Positions 1,091 to 44,463 of a stretch of 64,000 nucleotides of DNA are shown here, in pieces. Position 1 is the stretch's first letter, and every line of letters starts with the position of its first letter. The DNA comes from Enchytraeus crypticus (Eukaryota > Annelida > Clitellata > Enchytraeida > Enchytraeidae), in assembly GCA_905160935.1 (NCBI GenBank), contig CAJHZI010000552.1, forward strand, positions 605,501-669,500, read 5' to 3'. The position numbers were made by a program, and so were the translations under genes. The notes beneath the pieces were generated by a model. The model saw only the letters and a program-made list of their open reading frames with translations, was not told the DNA's origin and made no database searches.

Positions 1091-2623
1091 TTAAACTTCA
1101 GTATTAAATGAATCGACGTCCTCCTCGTGTTCGCCAGCACCATCATCAGGCTCCTCTCTAGGTTGAGTATCCTCTTCCTCTCTTCCGTACTTTCCCTCAG
1201 ACTTCTGAGTATCACCCCTTCCAAGCTCCTGACGTGTTTTCCACCCTCTATATCCAGCCTGGATTCTGAAAGCCGCTGCCTCAAGACTATCAGAAGGTTC
1301 GTCAGCATCATTCTGACGTTCTGCTTCTCTTAGATTTTGAGGATCGTCTCGGGGGTCATCGGCTGCATCATCATCATCACCATCATCGTCATCGTTCCTT
1401 GGAAGACTTGAGGGGCGATCTGATTGTTCTGCTGTTATTGCCATTATGGCATCGTCAACCTCCAAATCCCCACTGTCTCGGTTCAAATCCCTGTCGTTCC
1501 TAGAGTCCCTGCCATATGGACCTGATTCTGAATTTCTAGGAGTAGGAGTTTCCTGATCTTTCTCTGATCTTTCCTCTTTGCTCACTTGACGAAAAGCCGA
1601 TGCTTCTTCTTCTAATTCGGCAGATGTCACGTTGGTTCTACCAGTTGCAGAATCAGCAGATTCTTGATTTGCCTTTTCTAATTCTGAAACAACCTGTTCT
1701 CCGATTCCAACTGACAAGGCAGACTTAGCACCACCAAATTCCTTTCTGACCTTCATACCATGAAAGCCGGCTTGAATCTTAACAGCAGCCGCTACTCTTG
1801 CTTCATCATTCCTGGCTTCCTTTTGGTTGTTATCAGAGTCTTCACCAGTCCGGGCACTGCCAAAAGTTTCATCATGTTCGGGAAGACCTTCAGAAATTTG
1901 AGTAAAATCTTCTTCAACACGGGCGCTGCCAGGTTTGCTTGAGGCCTCTTCGTTTGCAACGCTTCTAGAGGATTCTGGATCAGCGTTGTCCGCAGCTCCT
2001 ACACCAGCATCATCATCATCATCGTCAGCGGAGGCAACAATTCTCTTAGAGATTTCTCCACTTCTGGAGCAATCCAATTCCCTGGCACTGGCTGGCTGTT
2101 GTTCCTCCTCCAGATTTCCTGTAGATCCTTCATCAGCCACTCTCTGGTTAAACTCTCTTCTCACTTTCATTCCTCTCGCTCCAGCTTGAATCCTTGTCGC
2201 CGCCAGATGACGTGAATCCATTTGATTCTCCTCAACTTCATCGTCATCTCTTGGTGTCCTGGTCTCTTCGTTTTCTTCCATGACGCCTTCTTCTTCTTTC
2301 ACCGGGGAATTGGAAACTGGTTCAACCATTTTATCATCTGCGTTATCTTGCGTCTGAACATCAGCGGAAGATTCTTCCATTTCCTGGTCAACATCGTTCT
2401 TCTTCAAATTTACTTCATCTTTTTCTTCGTCACTTTCAAATTCTGCTCTTTCCTTTAGAATCTTTCTGGTTTGATATCCTCTAAATCCTGCCTGTATTTT
2501 ATTAGCTGCTCTCAGTTTTTCGTCACTGCTGGTATGCCCGAGTTCTTCATGTTCTTCTTGTTGATCGGCTGCTCTAGGTGATGCTGCCTGTTCATCAATG
2601 CTGCCTCGCGTAAGAGCAGCTGC
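1091..2623 (-). CDS. SPA17: SPA17-like exon 8: terminal exon with four IQ motifs
   Basis: Acceptor 'attttatggtag', then AAALTRGSIDEQAASPR. 510 codons before the stop at 1093-1091. IQ motifs are 'AANKIQAGFRGYQTRK' (about 2512-2465), 'AATRIQAGARGMKVRR' (about 2205-2160), 'AAVKIQAGFHGMKVRK' (about 1795-1745) and 'AAFRIQAGYRGWKTRQ' (about 1280-1235), spaced by strongly acidic linkers with Asp runs encoded by GAT/GAC trinucleotide tracts. The motifs agree with each other better than the linkers do, which suggests selection on the helices. No clear polyadenylation signal was identified downstream. Confidence 0.85.
   Translation of the reverse strand, partial: AAALTRGSIDEQAASPRAADQQEEHEELGHTSSDEKLRAANKIQAGFRGYQTRKILKERAEFESDEEKDEVNLKKNDVDQEMEESSADVQTQDNADDKMVEPVSNSPVKEEEGVMEENEETRTPRDDDEVEENQMDSRHLAATRIQAGARGMKVRREFNQRVADEGSTGNLEEEQQPASARELDCSRSGEISKRIVASADDDDDDAGVGAADNADPESSRSVANEEASSKPGSARVEEDFTQISEGLPEHDETFGSARTGEDSDNNQKEARNDEARVAAAVKIQAGFHGMKVRKEFGGAKSALSVGIGEQVVSELEKANQESADSATGRTNVTSAELEEEASAFRQVSKEERSEKDQETPTPRNSESGPYGRDSRNDRDLNRDSGDLEVDDAIMAITAEQSDRPSSLPRNDDDDGDDDDAADDPRDDPQNLREAERQNDADEPSDSLEAAAFRIQAGYRGWKTRQELGRGDTQKSEGKYGREEEDTQPREEPDDGAGEHEEDVDSFNTEV

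Positions 2624-44463: not shown

Follow-up and report, generated by a model that had tools for sequence, protein, structure and literature searches.

A probable SPA17 paralog of Enchytraeus crypticus with a long acidic tail of axonemal-type and PEP-19-like IQ motifs

A 64,000-nucleotide stretch of the Enchytraeus crypticus genome (hereafter, the window) raises the question of whether one gene can join a SPA17-type docking domain to a giant tail of IQ motifs, or whether the exons of several genes have been read as one. The gene model on the minus strand comprises eight phase-compatible exons, in number and outer ends the same as those of the original prediction, and the joined frame runs for 2,003 residues without an internal stop (Table 1); the predicted product has a mass of 217.5 kDa and a pI of 4.66. 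The docking domain, the linker and the long acidic multi-IQ tail that had been announced are all present, in compatible phases. In our judgement, the eight exons probably form a single gene able to make a SPA17 paralog of ~2,003 residues.

Table 1. Exons and motif cores of the gene in the window, and exons of the second SPA17-type locus
Feature	Position	Strand	Content
Exon 1	44463-44310	minus	start codon, N-terminal strand, RIIa (D/D) helices of SPA17-type domain; donor AAG/GTAAGA, phase 1
Exon 2	25724-25654	minus	linker DPIKHAAEIQDRQYNNKSFE, ends YNNKSFE; phase 1 in, phase 0 out; aligned to Sp17 linker
Exon 3	20291-20113	minus	two IQ motifs (Pfam IQ); weak donor CAA/GTCTGT, phase 2
Exon 4	18424-18043	minus	acidic stretch and one IQ; strong donor GAG/GTAAGA, phase 0
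Exon 5	10461-7156	minus	1,102 codons; seven PEP-19-like acidic-IQ modules and diverged linkers
PEP-19-like core 1 (IG variant)	10179-10081	minus	
PEP-19-like core 2 (IG variant)	9867-9769	minus	
PEP-19-like core 3 (IG variant)	9552-9454	minus	
PEP-19-like core 4	9150-9052	minus	
PEP-19-like core 5	8553-8455	minus	
PEP-19-like core 6	8307-8209	minus	
PEP-19-like core 7	7530-7432	minus	
Exon 6	4595-4389	minus	acidic, Ser-rich, without IQ; phase 0 in and out
Exon 7	3837-3658	minus	one IQ; phase 0 in and out; weak donor
Exon 8	2623-1091	minus	four IQ motifs in very acidic tail; stop codon 1093-1091
SPA17b exons	C352: 1149228-1149408, 1158223-1158278, 1160229-1160410, 1165768-1166185		

The gene is not a chance reading, because exon 5 lies inside a single open frame that spans 1,151 codons from stop to stop, and because a profile of the six IQ motifs of exons 4, 7 and 8 was selective among the 1,937 six-frame ORFs of the window: only exons 8, 7, 4 and 3 exceeded the inclusion threshold, and exon 5 came next after it (E=0.058). 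An exon scan that combined acceptor-donor pairs with codon statistics, and whose range began beyond exon 1, recovered, among the 23 matches listed, pieces of exons 2-5, 7 and 8. Exon 6, which had not been found by eye, was placed by the scan correctly and in the correct phase with a score of 29.2. The other output among the matches listed consisted of fragments of one reverse-transcriptase ORF (best score 18.3) and three short intronic stretches (at most 9.2). It should be noted that the scan is partly circular, because the first exons to be chosen served to train its codon table. For exon 1 the codon score is marginal, at 0.035 bits per codon versus 0.036 in another frame; the exon-1 donor belongs to the top 0.22% of GT sites and the acceptor of exon 2 to the top 0.1% of AG sites.

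The N-terminal part of the predicted protein can be assigned to a family. Exons 1-3 match Sp17 (9fqr, E=2.7e-26 over residues 1-136; a further Sp17 chain, 1.7e-24), and residues 1-71 match the crystallised SPA17 D/D domain 7my4 (E=6.5e-19), in line with homology to the extended D/D domain (residues 1-75). The sequence PTDI in exon 1 has the form Pxx[L,I,V], which in the loop joining the two helices is a feature of R2D2 docking proteins (PMC8339350). The Pfam RIIa score is below the curated cut-off (15.9 versus 22.4 bits), which is a database threshold and not a published family definition; despite this, the longer Sp17 match clearly points to SPA17. As regards the X-type four-helix bundle of these proteins, a single-sequence monomer model predicted two helices, at residues 14-30 and 35-50, with a mean pLDDT of 64, and a Foldseek search with this low-confidence model of exon 1 gave no match at E up to 10. 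The likeness to SPA17/Sp17, a small D/D protein of sperm tails and motile cilia (PDB 7my4, 8j07, 9fqr), comprises the N-terminal strand, the RIIa helices with the Pxx[LIV] loop, a linker ending in YNN..F and an IQ motif thereafter. However, the matched Sp17 chains have 147 and 151 residues with one IQ in the alignment, whereas the gene in the window has two IQs in exon 3 and 13 motifs over ~1,870 further residues.

A relative in the same genome provides a standard for the gene structure. A search of the 524-Mb genome (802 contigs) with the SPA17 part (eight candidates scored, six matches) yielded the exons of the window, two exons on contig C352 and an IQ-only match on C296 (E=4.7), indicating that the genome has two SPA17-type loci. 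The second locus, SPA17b, encodes 278 residues in four exons; its third exon has two IQs, and its fourth, in which it ends, has one. Its RIIa domain exceeds the Pfam cut-off (29.8 bits), its exon 2 gave a weaker match (E=0.00017) and is without YNN, and its intron phases, 1-0-2, are those between exons 1-4 of the window gene. No PEP-19-like array was present in the 43 kb read downstream of SPA17b. This downstream region contains, on the plus strand, a 1,354-codon ORF and an integrase-like ORF (C352:1188751-1192812 and 1201424-1202434), which may both belong to one large DNA transposon. Inspection by eye did not recognise ROPN1L among the eight fetched of nine RIIa loci, and neither A1 nor the SPA17 part had a relative among the viral contigs searched.

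With the SPA17 part assigned, the decisive question is whether exon 4 is joined to exon 5. The most serious alternative is that two genes are neighbours here: exons 1-4 would encode a SPA17 of ~280 residues with three IQs, and exons 5-8 would belong to a separate multi-IQ gene with an unseen first exon. The end of SPA17b in exon 4 fits this alternative, and so does the read-through of exon 4, which reaches a stop at 17986 and would give a product of 280 residues, close to the 278 of SPA17b, with an AATAAA at 17945, ~40 bases on; in addition, the acceptor of exon 5 is weak (score -1.24). However, the donor of exon 4 (score 6.2; the acceptor of exon 4 has 4.3) is among the top 0.25% of the GT sites in the window, and codon scores switch sign at the exon boundaries. 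Only 0.7% of coding stretches score as low as the 18 read-through codons past the exon-4 donor, although this score is also attained by 21% of intron stretches. The 14 codons that precede the acceptor of exon 5 are non-coding-like (fraction of coding samples as low, 0.000 as printed), and the first 21 codons of exon 5, ahead of any inner ATG, are coding-like, their score being reached or passed by 3.7% of intron and 79.5% of coding stretches. These 21 codons had been kept out of the training of the codon table; nevertheless, the coding side of the test is flattered, because exons 4, 5 and 8 supplied both the 4,000 sampled coding stretches and training material for the table. Exon 5 thus opens in coding sequence without an ATG, preceded by non-coding sequence, and therefore needs an upstream phase-0 exon, for which exon 4, in phase and with its strong donor, offers itself.

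The exon 4-5 junction is thus favoured, the evidence being splice signals and codon statistics, and we regard two separate genes as unlikely, though as the one rival to be taken seriously. Of the single giant SPA17 that had been proposed, the exon 3-4 junction is backed by an intron of the paralog, whereas the exon 4-5 junction has splice signals and codon statistics behind it; one giant SPA17, with this joint as its weak spot, is the likely reading. The two outcomes are not mutually exclusive: given that SPA17b ends in exon 4, and given the 280-residue read-through with its AATAAA, it is quite possible that a short form is produced alongside the long product. No AATAAA or ATTAAA follows the stop codon of exon 8 within the window. 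Intron 4 holds a reverse-transcriptase ORF of 964 codons in sense orientation (13593-10699, minus strand; RVT_1 1.6e-15), and an A-rich stretch lies ~160 bases before exon 5.

It is far less probable that exons 1-3 end as a SPA17 of 151 residues and that the remainder is something else, which is the case that the original prediction had set against itself. The read-through of exon 3 does reach a stop at 151 residues, the length of one matched Sp17 chain, and the donor of exon 3 is weak (score -1.56; the donor of exon 7, at -4.85, is also weak). However, SPA17b has the donor CCA/GTAAGT on the very residue that is aligned with the window donor CAA/GTCTGT, in equal phase, and this matching intron is independent support for the exon 3-4 junction and disfavours a short SPA17 ending in exon 3. 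Moreover, the 15 tail codons past the donor are AT-rich (GC 0.24 versus 0.56) and non-coding-like: only 0.1% of coding stretches are as low, while 45% of intron stretches reach their score. Taken as the true end of SPA17, the exon-3 read-through is rejected in view of codon statistics and SPA17b. On the other side of exon 3, positions 20287-20786 hold about six copies of an 82-base repeat that includes the 3' splice site of the exon (TTTAG/CAAGC), and the acceptor region has therefore been multiplied in tandem.

In the eight-exon gene, the original prediction of about 15 IQ motifs agrees with the count, 15 IQ-like motifs being present in the joined frame; however, three of them carry IG in place of the IQ of the other 12, and they fall into two classes, eight axonemal-type IQs and seven PEP-19-type modules. 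Pfam IQ exceeded its cut-off in the pieces with exon 3 (39.2 bits, two stretches, C-terminal of the D/D domain), exon 4 (21.4 bits, cut-off 20.3), exon 7 (26.4 bits), exon 8 (64.8 bits, four stretches) and exon 5, where no individual stretch passed alone. Exon 6 had no Pfam match at E up to 0.1. A match of exon 5 to Yop-YscD_cpl (PF16697; 44.8 bits, cut-off 33.2) was rejected as a sum over repeats, because no single stretch passed.

The two classes are distinct, as their profiles have different best matches. The profile of the eight IQs outside exon 5 matched RSP23 (2.3e-13), CFAP91 (6.2e-9), neuromodulin (2.1e-5), Sp17 (9.7e-5) and DRC9 (3.3e-4), and PCP4 only at 0.36. In contrast, the profile of the seven exon-5 motifs matched PCP4 (PEP-19, 2n77_B) at E=2.8e-7, ungapped over PEP-19 residues 30-61, with the IQ of the CaV1.2 calcium channel as the runner-up (0.074). 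RSP23, the nucleoside-diphosphate kinase of the Chlamydomonas radial spoke (PDB 7jrj), has three stretches that match the axonemal-type profile and is not among the matches of the PEP-19-type profile; it differs from the gene in the window in having a nucleoside-diphosphate-kinase domain in place of the RIIa D/D domain. Kinship of the IQ motifs was dropped as a proof of one gene, since a tree of the 17-residue cores groups the second IQ of exon 3 with Sp17 and RSP23 and not with those of exons 4-8. The separation into two classes has one qualification, in that the first IQ of exon 3 was nearest to PCP4 in the 17-residue comparison.

In the exon-5 modules, as in PEP-19, an acidic stretch lies directly ahead of the IQ helix. 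Work on PEP-19 reports that the acids turned towards calcium site III of calmodulin are Asp31, Asp33 and Glu38, while Asp35 and Glu40 point away, and that the effect on calcium binding is spoiled when Asp31, Asp33 or Pro37 is mutated but little changed when Asp35 is (PMC5122967). The modules follow this division: all seven keep the same residue at the positions of Asp31, Asp33, Pro37 and Glu38, whereas the position of Asp35 varies (T, K or D), as does that of Glu40 (E, D, K or S). The IQ helix is less well kept, with Gly for Gln47 in modules 1-3 and Lys for Arg51 in 7/7, and the modules are for this reason named PEP-19-like and not PEP-19. According to the same work, PEP-19 peptides with R51K, or with Ile46 and Gln47 changed to Gly, lost their inhibiting power (PMC5122967), so that weaker calmodulin binding is predicted for the modules. 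A uniform array of tight calmodulin sites thus disagrees with the sequence. The modules also differ in setting from PEP-19/PCP4 (PDB 2n77), the calcium-steering acids and Pro37 of which they keep: PEP-19, a brain protein that tunes the calcium uptake of calmodulin, is small and free (62 residues in 2n77) and has a single module, whereas seven occur here in one exon. In the 524-Mb genome, a piece of 470 residues with modules 5-7 (11 candidates scored) matched nothing but exon 5 at E up to 10.

The cores of modules 1-3, which carry the IG form, are under purifying selection. Their 33 codons differ pairwise by 13, 9 and 7 synonymous and 0 nonsynonymous changes (dN=0; dS 1.09, 0.57 and 0.40), whereas the linkers of the same modules evolve almost freely (dN/dS ~0.62, 0.97 and 0.81). 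Recent gene conversion would also have erased the synonymous changes, and the simplest reading is therefore that selection has kept the IG form, not that it has decayed. That the tail is a non-functional, drifting expansion of repeats with dead copies as IG modules, as the near-neutral linkers and the three modules without the Gln might suggest, is hardly credible in view of the silent-only differences between the three cores, for which drift already seems unlikely, and of 2,003 codons without a stop.

Several other features share the window with the gene. A (TAA)n run in intron 3 is closely followed, at 19960-19811 on the minus strand, by a single WD40 repeat (Pfam WD40 2.7e-9) that ends in a stop and precedes an AT-rich stretch with AATAAA; it resembles a retrocopy or the 3' end of a WD40 gene. 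A second reverse-transcriptase ORF lies in intron 1 (33020-34030, plus strand; RVT_1 3.8e-18), and a piece that by eye is nearly identical to it lies past the 3' end of the gene, at C459:579381-579947. Beyond the 5' end of the gene, an open frame of 866 codons (55433-58030, plus strand) has two internal arrays of 45-base repeats and no Pfam match over cut-off, and an ORF at 63363-63680 on the plus strand, whose start is leader-like and which encodes the N-terminal domain of an iron/manganese superoxide dismutase (8.8e-12), is probably the first exon of a gene running out of the window.

What might a SPA17 paralog with such a tail do? SPA17 is reported to dimerise and to dock on AKAP helices in cilia, alone or with ROPN1L, the SPA17-ROPN1L heterodimers binding AKAP18 at nanomolar affinity, and in radial spokes RSP3 anchors its relatives RSP7 and RSP11 (PMC8339350). 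The D/D domain of the giant would dimerise and would dock as SPA17 does, most probably to an axonemal AKAP-type helix in sperm or in other motile cilia, so that a long, flexible, acidic tail would be held near the spokes. On this presumably disordered tail the eight axonemal-type IQs would park calmodulin, while the seven PEP-19-type modules would bind calmodulin loosely and speed calcium on and off its C-lobe; the result would be a tethered calmodulin reservoir with a fast local calcium response. We infer that exon 4 is spliced to exon 5 in transcripts, that the gene is expressed in ciliated cells, and that the tail is disordered, binds calmodulin and tunes its kinetics. The full proposal is a docked calcium-kinetics array, in which two tails, together bearing 14 PEP-19-type modules and 16 ordinary IQs, would be anchored by a SPA17-type dimer at one fixed place in the axoneme, and in which the IG form would be a selected loose binder that speeds calcium exchange on the calmodulin of neighbouring IQs. 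It is offered tentatively, as an idea that we hold to be somewhat more doubtful than probable.

A search of the literature (titles and abstract openings, with few subscription papers) yielded no description of this fusion, which is weak evidence that none is in print. A multi-IQ make-up is found in Igloo. Igloo, neuromodulin, neurogranin and PEP-19 are grouped as calpacitins (PMC9618489), and the gene would thus link two calmodulin families, the sperm docking proteins and the calpacitins. A study of a clam gives 3,260 and 1,558 nt for transcripts annotated as SP17 (PMC7720611); these lengths exceed the need of a 150-residue protein, but IQ motifs may be the sole basis of the annotation. One connection of PEP-19 with cilia comes from a mouse model of Down syndrome, in which the dose of Pcp4 affects the beating of airway cilia, an effect that the authors tie to raised cell calcium (PMC7139761). 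The acid/IQ motif has been put forward as a possible module of larger proteins (PMC5122967), and the docked array would, if true, be a real case of it.

Seven natural variants of the PEP-19 module are at hand in this gene, and selection already indicates which of their residues matter. Calcium alters the beating of cilia and sperm tails via calmodulin at several axonemal sites. A SPA17 paralog with a long array of calmodulin-type motifs, about half of which would change kinetics, would be a natural test of whether the waveform depends on the local supply of calmodulin and on its speed.
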